Source: Paludisphaera rhizosphaerae
Lineage (GTDB): Bacteria; Planctomycetota; Planctomycetia; Isosphaerales; Isosphaeraceae
DNA length: 64,000 bases
Assembly (NCBI RefSeq): GCF_011065895.1
Contig: NZ_JAALCR010000007.1
Location: 248,001 to 312,000 of the forward strand
Reading direction: 5' to 3'
The translations under genes were made by a program, and so were the position numbers. Below are positions 34,039 to 50,934 of the stretch, piece by piece. Positions within the stretch are counted from its first letter, which is position 1, and the number at the start of each line of letters is the position of its first letter. Below the pieces are notes generated by a model that was not told where the DNA came from, did no database searches, and was given only the letters and a program-made list of their open reading frames with translations.

Positions 34039-35085
34039 CTACACGCCGATCCCCGGCAGCCAGCGGCGGGCGTTCTCGCGGAAGAGTTTTCGGAGGACGG
34101 CCTCCGGGAGGCCGAGGCCTTTGGTCGGCCGGCCTTCGTAGGTCATCTCGGCGTCGCCGGCGTAGAAGGCGACGTCCTGATCGTGGCGGGCTAATAGGGC
34201 CTTCGCGCCGGCTTCCGGGTCGGCGTCGCGCAGGCCGTAGTCGGTCGCGTAGAGGATGCGGTCCTGATACTTCGTGAGGAAGGCGACGGCCTTATCGCGA
34301 TCGCCGCGGGCGAAGTAGCGGGTGCGGGCGGCGGTGTCGACGGCCAGGTTGGGATACGAGTCGAGACGACGGGCCAGGGCGTCCAGGTGGTCCTCGTCGC
34401 TCCCAAGGTGGCAGCCGACGACCCGGAGCTTCGGGAATCGGGCCAGCACGCGGTCGCGGGCGTTGAGGATCGCCTCCTTGGGCGGGGTCCCCTTGCCCAG
34501 CATGTGCCATTGGGGGTTCTTCGAGTAGTAGGGGAACTCGGGGTTCTTCTCGTCGAGCGGCAGCCAGGCCCCGTCGGGCTCGGCCAGGTGGGCGACCAGC
34601 GTCTTGCCGGCTTTCTCGATGGCCTCGTAGATCGGCGTCAGGCTGGGGTCGTCGGGCAAGAGGTAGGCCCCCGACTTGCCTCGGATCGCCATGCCGATGT
34701 TCTTCCAGATCTTGACCCCGATCGCGCCGTCGTCGAACGTCTTGAGCAGGCGGGCGATCGTCCGATCGGCGAAGCCCGCTTGCTCGAACCCGCGCGCGTC
34801 GAAGCTCGAAGCCCAGGCCACCCGGCCGCCGCTCGCCCGGGAGCATGCGAGCGTCGAGGCCAGCTTCGATTCCAGGTCGAAAGGCTCGTCCCCCGCGACG
34901 GGGCAGACGACCAGGTCGAGGCCGCTCCACCCCGACGCCTTGAGGCTGGCGAACACCGCCGGGGCGTCGCGATGGATGTGGAAGTGCGAGTCGATCCGCT
35001 CGAAGCCCTCCATCCGGGCCCCGAAGGCCGACCGCAGGAAGAAGGGAGCCGGGGCCAGTCGGAGCACGTCTCTGCGCGTCAGCAT
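34039..35085 (-). CDS. Tat-exported amidohydrolase-family protein
   Basis: This is a 348-residue protein with a twin-arginine leader (TRRDVLRLAPAPFF). The catalytic barrel begins with HFHIH (His 34 and 36 by this start). A metal-binding Lys/Glu candidate lies in GVKIWKNIG, then His in VAHLAEP and GCHLGSDEDH, and Asp in YATDYGL, as in the amidohydrolase-2 family (decarboxylases, lactonases). The ATG at 35085 has GAGGCGGA upstream, and the Tat motif follows directly; the longer frame to 35115 is possible. Activity is likely hydrolytic or decarboxylating, substrate unknown. Confidence 0.87.
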   Translation of the reverse strand: MLTRRDVLRLAPAPFFLRSAFGARMEGFERIDSHFHIHRDAPAVFASLKASGWSGLDLVVCPVAGDEPFDLESKLASTLACSRASGGRVAWASSFDARGFEQAGFADRTIARLLKTFDDGAIGVKIWKNIGMAIRGKSGAYLLPDDPSLTPIYEAIEKAGKTLVAHLAEPDGAWLPLDEKNPEFPYYSKNPQWHMLGKGTPPKEAILNARDRVLARFPKLRVVGCHLGSDEDHLDALARRLDSYPNLAVDTAARTRYFARGDRDKAVAFLTKYQDRILYATDYGLRDADPEAGAKALLARHDQDVAFYAGDAEMTYEGRPTKGLGLPEAVLRKLFRENARRWLPGIGV

Positions 35086-35235
35086 GGTCCGCCTCGATTT
35101 CGGAGCCTCGTCCAAACCGTCAGGAAGCCCAAGACTAAGCGTCGAGCGCGGCCGGGTCGAGGACGTTCTCTCCCGAAGACGCGGAGAGCATCGCCGTTCT
35201 GCGATCCGGAAGACCTCGGTATCGTATCCGCCAGC

Positions 35236-42747: not shown

Positions 42748-43467
42748 ATGTCCTCGCCGATCCATCGCCCGACCGATCGCCGGGCCTTCCTCGGCGCCCT
42801 CTCCATGGGCGCGGCGTTCTTCACCACCCGCGGGCTCTTCGCCGAGGAGCTGGCGCGCACGCCCGCTCGCACCGAGGGGCCGTTCTACCCGGACAAGCTG
42901 CCGCTCGACCAGGACAACGACCTGATCATCCTGGGGGATTCGCTCACCCCCGCCGTGGGCGAGATCTCCCACCTCCACGGCCGGATCCTCGACGCGACCG
43001 GCAAGCCGCTGAGCGGCCTCACGATGGAGATCTGGCAGTGCGACGCCAACCAGGTCTACCTCCACACGGCCGACAGCGGCCGCAAGGCCCAGCAGCAGGA
43101 CAAGAACTTCCAGGGCTTCGGCAAGTTCACGACGGCCTCGACGGGCGAGTACCGCTTCCGGACGATCAAGCCGGTCCCCTACCCCGGCCGCCCCGCCCCG
43201 CACATCCACTTCATAATCAAGCGCGGCGACCGCAAGTTGCTGACCTCGCAGATCAACATCGCCGGCCACCCGGGGAACAAGAAGGACGGCGTCGTCCTGG
43301 GAGGCATCAGCGTCTTCGACCGTGAACTGCTGATGACCGACTTCAAGCCGATCCCCGACTCCAAGACCGGCGAGCTGACCGCCAAGTTCGACGTGATCCT
43401 CGGCCGCACCCCGGACGACCAGGCGCTGCACGCCCTCCGCGACGCCCTCCAGAAGCGCAACGCCTGA
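42748..43467 (+). CDS. Exported intradiol ring-cleavage dioxygenase-like protein
   Basis: This is a 239-residue protein with a Tat-like leader (DRRAFLGALSMGAAFF). Candidate iron(III) ligands of intradiol dioxygenases are all present: Tyr 104 (NQVYLH), Tyr 145 (PYPGRP), His 152 and 154 (PHIHF). Upstream TEGPFYP and HLHGRILD fit the protocatechuate 3,4-dioxygenase family. Single-subunit exported members of this type are found in planctomycetes and others and may act on aromatic compounds outside the cytoplasm. Substrate unproven. The EF-hand protein gene follows 43 bases later and may be cotranscribed. Confidence 0.9.
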   Translation: MSSPIHRPTDRRAFLGALSMGAAFFTTRGLFAEELARTPARTEGPFYPDKLPLDQDNDLIILGDSLTPAVGEISHLHGRILDATGKPLSGLTMEIWQCDANQVYLHTADSGRKAQQQDKNFQGFGKFTTASTGEYRFRTIKPVPYPGRPAPHIHFIIKRGDRKLLTSQINIAGHPGNKKDGVVLGGISVFDRELLMTDFKPIPDSKTGELTAKFDVILGRTPDDQALHALRDALQKRNA

Positions 43468-44246: not shown

Positions 44247-44291
44247 AGGCGTTGGATCAAGGGCGATCGGCGGGACGAGCAACCGACGCCG

Positions 44292-44390
44292 GTCGTCCCC
44301 CTCATCAGACCGCCCCCGCGACGCTTGATCCGAAGCGCGACGACCCTCACCCGCCGCTGCGCGGCTGCCCTCTCCCGGGGGGAGAGGGGA
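44292..44390. repeat. Composite palindromic repeat locus 6 (shortened B', A')
   Basis: An inverted, shortened module B (GTCGTCCCCCTCATCAGACC) is followed by CTTGATCCGAAGCGCGACGA and inverted module A (CCGCTGCGCGGCTGCCCTC). The same right half, including the CGAAGCGCGACA spacer, occurs in locus 1. Confidence 0.85.
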
Positions 44391-44431
44391 CCAGACCCCC
44401 GCGACCCGGCCCTTGCCGACTGATCGTCCCA

Positions 44432-45904
44432 ATGACCGACTCCCCCCGCCCTCGCGTCCTGTTCGTCACCGGCCGGCTCGCCGAGTTCGCGCTGCGGAAG
44501 GTGCTGGACGACCTGGCGCCCCGCGCGGGGATCGAGGCCCAGGTCGCCGTCTTGCCGATCACCGTCGCCGCGCTGATGACCCCGGCGTGGATCGCGAAGC
44601 GGCTGGAGACCATCGAGGGGCTCGATCGCGTCATCCTCCCCGGCCATTGCCGGGGCGACCTGGGAGCGGTCGCGGCGAAGGTCCCCGGCGCGAAGGTCGA
44701 GGTTGGTCCCGAAGACCTGCGCGACCTCCCCCGCTGGTTCGGCGGCGATCGCGTGGAGGCCGCGGCCGAGCGCTACGGCTCTTATGACATTGAGATCCTC
44801 GCCGAGATCAACCACGCCCCCCGCCTCCCCCTCGCCGAACTGCTTCGCCAGGCCCGCGAGTTCGCCGCCCAGGGGGCCGACCTGATCGACGTCGGCTGTG
44901 AGCCCGGCGCGCCGTGGGCGGGCGTCGGCGAGGCCGTCCGCGCCCTCCGCGACGAGGGGCTGCGGGTCTCCATCGACAGCTTCGACCCCGACGAGGTCGC
45001 CCAGGCCGTCGCCGCGGGCGCGGAACTCGTCCTGAGCGTCAACGCCAGCAACCGCGAGGCCGCGAAGGATTGGGGTGCCGAGGTCGTCGCGATCCCCGAC
45101 GGCGTCGGCTCGCTCGACGGCCTCGACGAAACCGTCGACGCCCTGGAAATGGCCGGCGTCCGCTATCGGCTCGACCCGATTTTGGAGCCCATCGGCTTCG
45201 GCTTCGCGGAATCGCTGGGCCGCTACCTGGAGGCCCGTCGCCGATGGCCTGAGGCCGCCATGATGATGGGCGTGGGGAACCTCACCGAGCTGACCGACGT
45301 CGACTCGGCCGGCATCAACGCGCTCCTGATGGGGTTCTGCCAGGAGCAGCGGATCTTCAGCGTCCTCACCACGGCCGTCATCAACTGGGCCCGCTCGTCG
45401 GTCCGCGAGTTGGACCTGGCGCGTCGGCTGGCGCGGTTCGCCGTCGCCAACCGGCTGCCCCCCAAGCGGGTCGACCCCGGCCTGGTCATGCTCCGCGACC
45501 CCAAGCTGGAACGCTTCGGCCCCGACGATCTCGCCGAACTCCAGCGCCGGATCCGCGACCCCAACTGGCGGATCTTCGCGGAGGACGGCCTGGTCTACGC
45601 GCTCAACAACCAGCACTTCCTCAGCGGCGCCGACCCGTTCGCGATCTTCGAGGCGATGGGGGTCTCCGACGCCTCGCACGCCTTTTATCTGGGCTGGGAG
45701 ATGATGAAGGCGAGAACCGCCTTGACGCTGGGCAAGGCGTATCGCCAGGATCAAGCACTGGCGTGGGGGTTCCTCACCGAGCCGGAGAAGGTCCACCGGC
45801 TGCAACGCGGGCCGGTCGGGCGTGCGGTCGGGCCGTCGCCCTCGAAGCCGCCGACGCCGGAGTCGGGACCGGCCTCGACGCCCGAGGAGGACGACCGCGC
45901 GTGA
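44432..45904 (+). CDS. DUF6513 / dihydropteroate synthase-related protein of the H4MPT pathway
   Basis: This is a 490-residue protein. An N-terminal domain (about 1-125; VLFVTGRLAEFALRKVL) precedes a DHPS-like TIM barrel (ILAEINHAPRLPLAELLRQA; GADLIDVGCEPGAPWAGVGE; GLRVSIDSF). Proteins of this architecture accompany tetrahydromethanopterin genes in methylotrophs and planctomycetes; their exact step is unresolved, though a dihydropteroate synthase-like role is presumed. The stop overlaps the next gene start (GTGA at 45901-45904). It is the first of three tightly linked genes. A low-complexity tail (PSPSKPPTPESGPASTP) is unusual. Confidence 0.9.
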   Translation: MTDSPRPRVLFVTGRLAEFALRKVLDDLAPRAGIEAQVAVLPITVAALMTPAWIAKRLETIEGLDRVILPGHCRGDLGAVAAKVPGAKVEVGPEDLRDLPRWFGGDRVEAAAERYGSYDIEILAEINHAPRLPLAELLRQAREFAAQGADLIDVGCEPGAPWAGVGEAVRALRDEGLRVSIDSFDPDEVAQAVAAGAELVLSVNASNREAAKDWGAEVVAIPDGVGSLDGLDETVDALEMAGVRYRLDPILEPIGFGFAESLGRYLEARRRWPEAAMMMGVGNLTELTDVDSAGINALLMGFCQEQRIFSVLTTAVINWARSSVRELDLARRLARFAVANRLPPKRVDPGLVMLRDPKLERFGPDDLAELQRRIRDPNWRIFAEDGLVYALNNQHFLSGADPFAIFEAMGVSDASHAFYLGWEMMKARTALTLGKAYRQDQALAWGFLTEPEKVHRLQRGPVGRAVGPSPSKPPTPESGPASTPEEDDRA

Positions 45905-46491
45905 TCCTGGAAGGTCTGGTCACCACCCTGAGCCCCGAAGGCGAGCTGAACATCGCGCCGATGGGCCCCAAGATCCCGGCCGACCTGAGCATGGGGACGT
46001 TCGTCCTGCGCCCTTATAGGACGTCGACGACCTACCGCAACCTGAAGGAGGGGGGCGAAGGGGTCTTCCACGTCGTCGACGACGTCCTGCTGCTGGCCCA
46101 GGCGGCGATCGGATCCCCGCTCGTCCCGTCGCCGGAGACCTTCGCGGCGAAGTCCGTCGCCGGCCGGGTGCTCGCGGACGCCTGCCGCTATTACGAGTTT
46201 CGAGCGATCGTGGTGGACGACGTGGACGAGCGGACGACCATCCTCGTGGAGACCCTCGCCGAGGGCCGAATCCGCGACTTCCTGGGCCTCAACCGGGCCA
46301 AGTCCGCCGTCGTCGAGGCCGCCATCCTGGCGACCCGCACGGCCTTCCTGCCGATCGACGAGATCCTGGCCGAGTATCGCAAGTTCTCGACGATCGTCGA
46401 CAAGACGGGCGGTCCTCCCGAGCGCCGGGCGCTCGACATGCTGACCGACCACGTCCGCCGCGCGGCCGAATCGAAGGCGTCCGCGTCATGA
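45901..46491 (+). CDS. DUF447 protein of the H4MPT gene cluster
   Basis: This is a 196-residue protein that begins at a GTG overlapping the upstream stop (GTGA). The start VILEGLVTTLSPEGELNIAP followed by MGPKI and FVLRPYRTSTTYRNL is the signature of DUF447, an FMN-binding split-barrel-like family. In methylotrophs such genes lie with tetrahydromethanopterin biosynthesis genes. The stop overlaps the next ATG (ATGA). A role in pterin cofactor biosynthesis or C1 transfer is inferred from context. Confidence 0.88.
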   Translation: MILEGLVTTLSPEGELNIAPMGPKIPADLSMGTFVLRPYRTSTTYRNLKEGGEGVFHVVDDVLLLAQAAIGSPLVPSPETFAAKSVAGRVLADACRYYEFRAIVVDDVDERTTILVETLAEGRIRDFLGLNRAKSAVVEAAILATRTAFLPIDEILAEYRKFSTIVDKTGGPPERRALDMLTDHVRRAAESKASAS

Positions 46492-47444
46492 GGCGGCTGA
46501 CGATCCGGACGGGGAGCCGGCTGCACTTCGGCCTGCTGGGCTGGGGCCCGCACCTGCGCCGGCAGTTCGGCGGCGTCGGGCTCATGGTGGAGGAGCCTGG
46601 GCTGGAGATGTCGGCCGTCCCCGCCGATCGGTTCGAGGCCGTCGGCCCGCTGGCCGATCGCGTCGGCCCTTTGCTGGAGCGGATCGCCGCGCGCTGGGAC
46701 GGCCCGACGCCGCTGCAACCGGTCCGCGTGGAAGTCCTCAAGACGCCCGACGAGCACGCCGGCTTCGGCGTGGGGACGCAGCTCAGCCTGGCCGTGGCGC
46801 GGCTGGTTCTGGAGACGGCCGGCGAGGCGTCCCCCCCGGCCGAGCGTTTGGCGGCGCTCTCGGGGCGCGGGCGGCGGTCGGGCGTGGGTTTGCACGGGTT
46901 CGTCCACGGCGGCCTGATCGTCGACGCCGGCCACGCCGCGCCCGACGACCTGCCGCCGATGGTCTCACGGCTGGAGTTCCCCGCCGAGTGGTCGATCCTG
47001 ATCGTCCGCCCCCCCGCCCCTCCCGGCCGCCACGGCGGCGACGAGGTCGCGGCCTTCGCCGACCTTCCCCCCGTCCCCGAGGCCGTCTCCGGCCGCCTCT
47101 GCCGACTTGTCCTGCTCGACCTTCTGGGAGCCGTCGCCGCGCGCGACCTGCCGGCCTTCGGCGAAGCCCTCACGGCGATCCAGCGCGAGGTCGGCGCGGC
47201 CTTCGCCCCCGCGCAGGGGGGCGGCGTGTACGCGAGCCCGGAGTCGGAAGCCCTCGTCGCCAAGCTGGGCCGTCTGGGCCTCTTCGGCGCAGGCCAGAGT
47301 TCCTGGGGGCCCTCGCTCTACGCCTTCGGGATCCTCTCCGACGCCGAAAAGCAGGCCGTCGCCGCCCGCCTGGGCCTCCCCTCAGAAGCCCTCTTCTGGA
47401 CCCATGCCCGCAATCAAGGCGCGGTCCTGACCACCGATTCCTGA
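46488..47444 (+). CDS. Beta-ribofuranosylaminobenzene 5'-phosphate synthase-like protein
   Basis: This is a 318-residue GHMP-superfamily protein beginning RLTIRTGSRLHFGLLGWGPH, the hallmark N terminus of beta-RFAP synthases, followed by FGGVGLMV. The GHMP phosphate-binding loop is FGVGTQLSLAVARLVL (about 92-107), and GRGRRSGVGLHGF and the C-terminal AGQSSWGPSLYAF are also typical. The enzyme catalyses the first committed step in making the arabitol-linked side chain of methanopterin, using PRPP and 4-hydroxybenzoate or p-aminobenzoate. It overlaps DUF447 by four bases (ATGA). Confidence 0.92.
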   Translation: MRRLTIRTGSRLHFGLLGWGPHLRRQFGGVGLMVEEPGLEMSAVPADRFEAVGPLADRVGPLLERIAARWDGPTPLQPVRVEVLKTPDEHAGFGVGTQLSLAVARLVLETAGEASPPAERLAALSGRGRRSGVGLHGFVHGGLIVDAGHAAPDDLPPMVSRLEFPAEWSILIVRPPAPPGRHGGDEVAAFADLPPVPEAVSGRLCRLVLLDLLGAVAARDLPAFGEALTAIQREVGAAFAPAQGGGVYASPESEALVAKLGRLGLFGAGQSSWGPSLYAFGILSDAEKQAVAARLGLPSEALFWTHARNQGAVLTTDS

Positions 47445-49534: not shown

Positions 49535-49599
49535 GTTAAGGTAGGGCTTCGCATCGAGGTTCGATCGAACACCCCTGCAAGCCGCCGAGGAGCCTCCGG

Positions 49600-50934
49600 A
49601 TGAACCCTGACGAGAACCTCTCCCGCCGCGAGTTCCTGGCCGCCTCCTCGATCGCCCTCGGCGCGGCGGCGGCCGTGGGGTCGAAAGCTTCGGCAGCGGC
49701 GGCGGCTGAGCCGGCGAAGCTCGCGTTGCACGGCGGCGCGAAGGCGGTCGTCGAGCGGCTGCCGAAGCTCGTCCGCTGGGGGGGGCCCGAGAAGGGGCGG
49801 CTCGACGCGATGCTCGGGCAGGACACGCTCTTCTACTGGAAGGGCCCCCAGACCACCCTGCTGCTCGACCGCTTCCGGAAGATCTGCCCCCTGCCCCAGG
49901 CGATGTCCTGTTCGTCCGGGACGGCGGCGCTCCACATCGCCGTGGCCGCCGCGGGGATCGCGCCGGGGGACGAGGTGATCACCAGCCCGATCACCGACAT
50001 CGGCACGGTGATCGGCGTCCTGTTCCAGCAGGCCGTCCCCGTCTTCGCCGACCTCGGCCGCAACACGTACAACCTCGACCCCGCCGACGTGGAGCGGCGG
50101 ATCACGCCCAGGACGAAGGCGATCATCGCCGTCCACCTCGCCGGCAACCCCTGCGACCTCGACGCCCTGAAGTCGATCGCGGCCCGCCACAAGCTCGTCC
50201 TGATCGAGGACTGCGCCCAGGCCTGGGGAGCGCTCCGGGGCGGGAAGCCGATCGGCACCGAGGGGGACGTCGCCTGCTTCTCGCTCCAGAACTCCAAGCA
50301 CGTCACCTGCGGCGACGGCGGCGTGGTCGCGTCGGGCGACCCGGCGATCGGGAGGAAGCTCCAGCAGTTCGGCGATAAGGGGATGGACCGCCTGGGCAAG
50401 GGCGGACTCTTCGAAACTTTCGCCACCAACTACCGGATGAGCGAGCCCCAGGCCGCCGTCGCCGCTGCGCAGATGGAGCGCGTGGAGTCGATCGTCGAGA
50501 CCCGCAGCCGGCTGGGCCGCCTCCTCAGCGACGAGTTGGCCGGCGTCAAGGGCGTCGAGCTTCCCCGGATCCGCGACGAAGACCGTTGCTCATTCTGGTT
50601 CTACATGCTGCGCGTCCGGCCGGAGGCGCTCCGCTGCGACCGGACCGAGTTCGTCAAGGCGATCGCCGCCGAGGGCGCGCCGGCCTCGGAGGGCTACATC
50701 CCCGTGCCGCTCTACGGCAACCCGGTCTTCCAGAACCACGGCTTCTTCGCCGGCCGATGGCCCCTCAAGGAGATGGGCCTGACCGATATGGACTACACCA
50801 AGGTCTCCTGCCCCGAGGCCGAGTCGATCCTCAAGACGTGCTTCCGCCTGACGATCCACGAGGGGATGACCGAATCCTACGTCCGCAGCATGGCCGCCGC
50901 CGTCCGCAAGGTCGCCGATCATTACGCCTCGTGA
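49600..50934 (+). CDS. DegT/DnrJ/EryC1/StrS-family aminotransferase with Tat signal
   Basis: This is a 444-residue PLP-fold protein. A twin-arginine leader (LSRREFLAASSIALGAAAAV) runs over the first 30 residues. The fold-type I signature residues are present: SSGTAALHIA (about 105-114), Asp 204 in LIEDCAQAWG and the likely PLP Lys 233 in SLQNSKHVTCGDGG. Most DegT enzymes are cytoplasmic sugar aminotransferases; Tat export of a folded, cofactor-loaded enzyme would place it in the periplasm. Function and substrate are open. Confidence 0.9.
   Translation: MNPDENLSRREFLAASSIALGAAAAVGSKASAAAAAEPAKLALHGGAKAVVERLPKLVRWGGPEKGRLDAMLGQDTLFYWKGPQTTLLLDRFRKICPLPQAMSCSSGTAALHIAVAAAGIAPGDEVITSPITDIGTVIGVLFQQAVPVFADLGRNTYNLDPADVERRITPRTKAIIAVHLAGNPCDLDALKSIAARHKLVLIEDCAQAWGALRGGKPIGTEGDVACFSLQNSKHVTCGDGGVVASGDPAIGRKLQQFGDKGMDRLGKGGLFETFATNYRMSEPQAAVAAAQMERVESIVETRSRLGRLLSDELAGVKGVELPRIRDEDRCSFWFYMLRVRPEALRCDRTEFVKAIAAEGAPASEGYIPVPLYGNPVFQNHGFFAGRWPLKEMGLTDMDYTKVSCPEAESILKTCFRLTIHEGMTESYVRSMAAAVRKVADHYAS

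Follow-up and report, generated by a model that had tools for sequence, protein, structure and literature searches.

The gene at positions 49600–50934 on the forward strand of the window, by which we mean the whole 64,000-nucleotide stretch of DNA analysed, encodes a DegT/StrS-family protein whose Tat leader is conserved among its orthologues. Computation also gives an intact PLP site, the DegT fold and, in relatives, a set of conserved neighbours. We propose that the protein is a Tat-exported aminotransferase that acts in the periplasm on keto or amino sugars, or on cyclitols, that are not bound to nucleotides, and we assign this reading a probability of about 0.6. The protein would fold and load PLP in the cytoplasm and would then cross the inner membrane through the Tat system in this folded, PLP-loaded form. 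In the periplasm it would shuttle between its PLP and PMP forms and move an amino group between an amino acid and the keto group of a free or glycosidic sugar or of a cyclitol. Nucleotide sugars are not expected in the periplasm and should therefore not be the substrate.

The ATG-started open reading frame encodes 444 amino acids. The N-terminus of its product, MNPDENLSRREFLAASSIALGAAAAVGSKASA (also given as MNPDENLSRREFLAASSIALGAAAAV), contains SRREFL followed by a hydrophobic stretch, in agreement with the motif of Tat substrates. A twin arginine and a hydrophobic stretch ahead of a DegT fold had been described in the earlier note, and this description was confirmed. The features of the gene are as follows.

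49587–49592, forward strand: Shine-Dalgarno-like GAGGAG, 7 nt before the ATG (from the sequence)
49600–50934, forward strand: DegT/DnrJ/EryC1/StrS-family PLP enzyme with a Tat leader, 444 amino acids (Pfam profile, AlphaFold2 model, Foldseek)
49600–49713, forward strand: predicted Tat signal peptide, taken as residues 1–38 (motif, conservation in orthologues, low model confidence at residues 1–40)
49624–49635, forward strand: RREF, residues 9–12, the core of the Tat motif S-R-R-x-F-L (conserved in the aligned orthologues)
49714–50931, forward strand: mature DegT domain, starting with LALHGG at the start point of leaderless relatives (comparison with relatives)
50209–50211, forward strand: Asp204 in LIEDCAQAWG, predicted partner of the PLP ring nitrogen (invariant in the clade)
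50296–50298, forward strand: Lys233 in FSLQNSKHVTCGDGG, predicted internal-aldimine (Schiff base) lysine (invariant in the clade)

Translation from the methionine of the leader is likely, since GAGGAG lies 7 nt before this ATG and the next in-frame ATG, at residue 72, falls within the DegT domain. The labels for leader-bearing and leaderless proteins come from one custom filter and from reading by eye. When the first 45 residues of the window protein were shuffled 10000 times, only 6 of the products passed the filter, but so did 8 of the 188 window frames of at least 150 codons, some of these frames being antisense. The filter alone is thus weak evidence, and conservation of the leader is the strong part. 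The same genome carries a TatC gene (C3:208498-209382, E 5.6e-59).

The clade alignment was used as a profile to scan 84,980 species genomes; 191 stretches encoding relatives were found, and the best 80 (L068–L147) were kept. These 80 loci show 58–72% identity to the window protein, and they include 39 from Planctomycetota, 30 from Verrucomicrobiota, six from Hydrogenedentota and one each from Kiritimatiellota and Acidobacteriota. Of the 80 orthologous loci, 78 encode in frame an RRxF-type motif with a hydrophobic stretch after it. The earlier note had named conservation of the leader in homologues as a check of export, and this count answers it in the affirmative. The two exceptions are L143, whose leader is truncated by the start of the contig, and L137, whose sequence lacks a leader and which is the first branch of clade A, the clade of the window protein, in a fast tree. 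Five further orthologues from a genome search (L015–L018 and L044) all have the leader; three of them apparently come from the same genomes as L069, L070 and L073. The mean identity to the window protein over 81 aligned rows is 66% in the mature part and 37% in the leader, while both arginines of the RR pair are kept in 79 of 81 rows and Phe12 in 80 of 81. On the sequences compared, such a fixed motif within a drifting leader is the pattern given by selection on a signal peptide. Of 79 orthologues, 46 have an AxA that resembles a signal-peptidase site between the leader and the domain. GGAG, GAGG or AGGA precedes the chosen start in 42 of 79; in a control 12-mer from within the leader such a motif occurs in 1 of 79. 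A leader arisen by chance is ruled out by the conservation across loci, the kept RR pair and the shuffles. Judged from these sequence features, the window protein is very probably exported.

The reading as an ordinary cytoplasmic enzyme, with a leader that is untranslated or non-functional, is very improbable. Leaderless relatives do exist, L137 being one within the clade, and homologues that start after the leader had been named in the earlier note as evidence against export; apart from this basal member they were found only in other clades, at no more than 46% identity. Retention of the RR pair while the remaining leader drifts argues against the cytoplasmic reading, as do the Shine-Dalgarno-like site ahead of the ATG of the leader and the position of the next ATG.

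The enzyme part was assigned by a PF01041 match over residues 79–435 (E 5.1e-82, 276.4 bits against a cut-off of 19.8). None of the named DegT equivalogs (PseC, ArnB, WecE, DesI, RfbH) reaches its curated NCBIfam cut-off, the best being PseC with 187.5 bits against 423.5. An identity with a named equivalog was dropped because all NCBIfam DegT matches lie far under their cut-offs. The PLP lysine and its aspartate partner had been placed at residues 233 and 204 in the earlier note, and both are indeed found there. S106, D133, D204, Q207, S228, K233, N277, R279 and E282 do not vary across the 81 clade rows, T108 is kept in 79, and Lys233 also stays the same in all 125 rows of a set that extends to other DegT clades. 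The roles of Lys233 and Asp204, and the contacts of K233, D204, Q207, S228 and N277 with PLP, its phosphate and its ring, are assumed by us from known DegT structures. Clade A and the leaderless sisters of this clade have Asp at residue 133, where other clades have an aromatic residue (Phe, Tyr or Trp). Taken together, the site makes PLP chemistry of the window protein likely, by sequence.

The AlphaFold2 model has a mean pLDDT of 93.4, and only the leader region (residues 1–40) is poorly defined. The nearest solved fold is Fic25 (8gyh; Foldseek E 8.8e-34, TM 0.80/0.84), with a fold type I architecture like that of the solved members; GDP-perosamine synthase, metagenomic sugar transaminases, BtrR and KdnA are further near folds. 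A profile search against solved structures agrees with the fold search and places 8gyh and 5k8b first. The nearest solved relatives are sugar, cyclitol or amino-polyol aminotransferases, several of them with non-nucleotide substrates (Fic25, KdnA, BtrR). For Fic25 this follows from the ligand named in the structure listing, and for KdnA and BtrR we assume that nucleotide-linked substrates are not needed. By analogy, such substrates would suit an enzyme outside the cytoplasm.

The nearest other relatives (L045–L060, 39–46% identity) are leaderless and start where the mature domain starts. A first tree was built from 125 of 175 rows, without duplicates (L004, L014, L149–L155, L069, L070, L073) and matches aligned over fewer than 220 residues, and with only 33 of the 83 clade A rows retained, chosen partly at random. 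It gave 7–8 changes of the Tat label, but the leaderless label is doubtful for three rows, since contig ends truncate L122_3 and L132_1 and since L034 fails the filter despite its RR. L044 was labelled as Tat by hand, its RRRF leader having failed the charge limit of the filter. In a maximum-likelihood tree of 49 rows, hand-picked from the 125 without the three doubtful ones, clade A is one branch (100/100) that stands beside leaderless rows, and the Tat label requires four changes. Forcing all Tat-bearing DegT proteins together costs 158 log units (p-AU 1.35e-6), and a single origin of all exported DegT proteins is rejected. The four changes and this rejection imply that separate DegT branches gained, or lost, their leaders on several occasions. 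The Tat-bearing branches are clade A, clades B and C from tandem clusters, and clade D (C20 of the own genome, and L126); clade C also occurs in other genomes of the family of the window. In six leaderless genomes of one family (G220, G112, G131, G324, G192, G163) an A-like and a D-like DegT gene are adjacent, and four of the six also have a nearby amidohydrolase-like gene that lacks a leader (Pfam check on one). To judge from their sequences, these pairs are apparently the same kit in the cytoplasm, and one chemistry could then be compared on two sides of the membrane. Clade A is patchy: within the window's family 3 of 37 genomes have it, none of the five other genomes of the window's genus does, and in the phylum sample 4 of 392 genomes, the own one included, score E < 1e-180 for it.

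No partner family was found next to the window gene, which stands alone, and no operon, promoter or terminator pattern was found around it. A thioredoxin-like protein is encoded upstream, and a short opposite-strand protein with no Pfam match and an HSP20 downstream. The neighbourhoods of relatives fall mainly into two cluster types, and the own genome has parts of both, dispersed. These are a pair of amidohydrolases at C1:265850-267384, both read as leaderless; a clade D Tat-DegT gene on C20 with two amidohydrolases next to it, of which the first has a Tat leader; an exported RidA-fold protein on C4 (L219 4156-5436, 279 bits to the cluster model); and 47 Gfo/Idh matches, several with Tat leaders.

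Type I is defined by a pair of amidohydrolases (PF04909), at least one of which is present; it occurs in 33 of the 80 loci, often with a nitrilase-type CN hydrolase and a beta-propeller protein ahead. Type II, with at least two DegT genes or a RidA-fold gene, occurs in 24 of the 80, and L101 is counted in both types by way of a leaderless DegT gene on the opposite strand. Neither type was found in another 24 of the 80 loci, several of which are on short contigs. The matches to the two amidohydrolases, the CN hydrolase, the propeller protein and the RidA-fold protein all lie on the DegT strand (34, 30, 14, 13 and 13 matches), as do 35 of 42 Gfo/Idh matches. Both amidohydrolases are upstream in 23 of the 57 loci with at least 3 kb of upstream sequence. 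Among the 46 loci with at least 6 kb downstream, a Gfo/Idh gene follows in 19, a further DegT gene in 10 and the RidA-fold gene in eight.

In type I the neighbours at work beside the enzyme would be an exported nitrilase-type hydrolase and the amidohydrolases. According to the filter, the first amidohydrolase lacks a leader in 23 of 30 cases. For the second, the filter calls were unreliable owing to wrong start frames; read by eye, it has a leader in at least nine loci (L071, L075, L090, L091, L092, L093, L117, L124, L135) and a leaderless start in at least five (L070, L081, L113, L138, L146). Since leaderless and leader-bearing amidohydrolases are mixed, the type I route is not wholly periplasmic. 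A structure search found no solved relatives of the two amidohydrolases.

One DegT gene is present in 59 of the 80 loci, two in 10, three in 10 and four in one, and the further DegT genes of type II loci have Tat leaders. The filter flags Tat leaders in 35 of the 42 Gfo/Idh matches over all loci. The RidA-fold protein has an N-terminal signal in 12 of 13 cases, two of them flagged as Tat, the last being cut by a contig end. By these sequence features the parts of type II look exported. The RidA-fold protein contains three PF01042 stretches (E 1.2e-28). R105 of E. coli RidA, which we take to be the catalytic arginine, is absent from all three domains, the PAR of RidA being PAT in domain 1, PPVVF in domain 2 and PPAAS in domain 3. 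The protein can thus not be labelled outright as an imine deaminase. One cluster Gfo/Idh protein has its best PDB matches in the dehydrogenases 8tdf and 8tdh, and weaker ones in glucuronide-3-dehydrogenase 8tdi and the Tat-precursor glucose-fructose oxidoreductase 1h6a. XylR-type regulators adjoin 3 of the 24 type II loci (their model was built on those three), and a sulfatase with an N-sulphoglucosamine-sulphohydrolase C-terminus and GH5/GH42-like proteins lie beside some. These neighbours suggest a setting of glycan use, as far as the sequences indicate.

In type II relatives the exported Gfo/Idh dehydrogenase would make or consume the keto sugar. We regard coupling of the aminotransferase to these enzymes as possible, though somewhat doubtful. 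A broader and still more tentative proposal is an extracytoplasmic pathway of ketosugar transamination, with up to four tandem Tat-DegT proteins, a Tat Gfo/Idh enzyme and the exported triple RidA-fold protein. It may have been built by repeated outward moves of cytoplasmic enzymes in planctomycetes, verrucomicrobia and allies and may deal with the nitrogen of amino sugars outside the cytoplasm.

At L107, L108, L132, L136, L142 and other type II loci, as many as four Tat-DegT paralogues that belong to different clades stand in tandem. The PDB list contains a hetero-oligomeric DegT-family aminotransferase (8y96), so that hetero-oligomers of the tandem proteins are conceivable. At L021:202-2577 (forward strand) a single frame of 792 amino acids, with no obvious leader, joins an N-terminal Gfo/Idh-like domain to a DegT domain and thus appears to combine dehydrogenase and aminotransferase in one protein. 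At L101:1-1317 (reverse strand) the leaderless DegT gene that adjoins the clade A cluster branches beside the Tat-bearing clade C.

The exported enzyme could also serve biosynthesis, by aminating a keto sugar on an envelope polymer or exopolysaccharide outside the cytoplasm instead of acting in sugar breakdown. The window gene lies outside any catabolic cluster, many characterised DegT enzymes run from keto to amino in the synthesis of surface sugars or antibiotics, and PtaA and PvdN tailor a product in the periplasm, according to the part of the source consulted (PMC6206403). This reading is nevertheless rather unlikely: the neighbours of relatives look catabolic (amidohydrolases, nitrilase-type hydrolase, sulfatase, GH5/GH42-like proteins, XylR-type regulators), and a non-exhaustive search found no glycosyltransferase among the conserved neighbours.

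Less probable again is an exported PLP enzyme with another chemistry, such as elimination, dehydration or decarboxylation. DegT dehydratases have an active-site Lys-to-His change; here the lysine is present, and the site is otherwise the usual one of DegT aminotransferases. Arguing for another chemistry are the Asp at position 133, where other clades have an aromatic residue, and PvdN, whose PLP chemistry outside the cytoplasm is other than transamination in the available text (PMC6206403). The earlier note had considered a periplasmic PLP aminotransferase or a sugar-binding relative plausible. Exported sugar-binding proteins are common, but the catalytic Lys, Asp, Gln, Ser, Asn and Arg are all invariant, which favours an enzyme over a mere sugar binder, and a non-catalytic binding or sensing protein retaining the DegT fold is highly improbable. 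The results support the exported aminotransferase considered in the earlier note.

Characterised DegT/StrS members are, as far as is known, cytoplasmic and are textbook enzymes of nucleotide-sugar and antibiotic biosynthesis. The earlier note had likewise called the family normally cytoplasmic, and the leaderless relatives illustrate this usual place. Perosamine synthase (3bn1), KdnA (5k8b), BtrR (2c7t) and Fic25 (8gyh) share fold, PLP site and length with the window protein at about 25–32% identity; the window protein differs from them by its conserved Tat leader. Glucose-fructose oxidoreductase of Zymomonas is a cofactor-loaded sugar enzyme exported by Tat. This NADP enzyme (1h6a precursor) and the glycoside 3-dehydrogenases (8tdi) are relatives of the Gfo/Idh neighbour; belonging to another family, it offers an analogy for the logic of export and a possible partner, not a homologue.

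PtaA and PvdN, which we take to be outside DegT/StrS and in other fold classes, are a direct precedent for the handling of the cofactor. The window protein would resemble them in PLP loading in the cytoplasm, folded export by Tat and PLP chemistry in the periplasm, and differs in that their substrate is a siderophore peptide and not a sugar. As the accessible part of the source describes, both are exported by Tat with PLP bound and serve pyoverdine maturation in the periplasm of Pseudomonas, and PvdN with its active-site lysine mutated is not exported (PMC6206403). On that account, a periplasmic PLP transaminase as such is already known. Breakdown of 3-keto-glycosides by Gfo/Idh enzymes and eliminases similarly has ketosugar intermediates handled by Gfo/Idh oxidoreductases, but no aminotransferase step is described in the portion seen (PMC10628242). 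No paper on a Tat-exported DegT protein was found in the open-access literature; most subscription journals are outside this scope, and the case that nothing has been published is a weak one. What appears to be new is a DegT/StrS branch whose Tat leader is conserved, was acquired more than once and is found in tandem clusters. With this branch the short list of PLP enzymes in the periplasm would reach past siderophore tailoring, and its existence outside the cytoplasm implies that free keto or amino sugars and an amino donor are present there. The branch points to a link with amino-sugar chemistry outside the cytoplasm, in relatives from several environmental bacterial phyla, and provides gene clusters in which glycan breakdown by planctomycetes and verrucomicrobia can be tested.

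Elsewhere in the window, 34039–35115 on the reverse strand (C7:282054) encodes an Amidohydrolase-2 family protein with the Tat-like start RRDVLRLAPAPFF, an exported-looking member of a usually cytoplasmic family. An intradiol ring-cleavage dioxygenase (PF00775) with the Tat-like leader DRRAFLGALSMGAAFF is encoded at 42748–43467 on the forward strand. At 44252–47444, also on the forward strand, a DUF6513/pterin-binding protein, a DUF447 protein and a beta-RFAP-synthase-family protein are encoded in a row, presumably a methanopterin-type C1 gene cluster.
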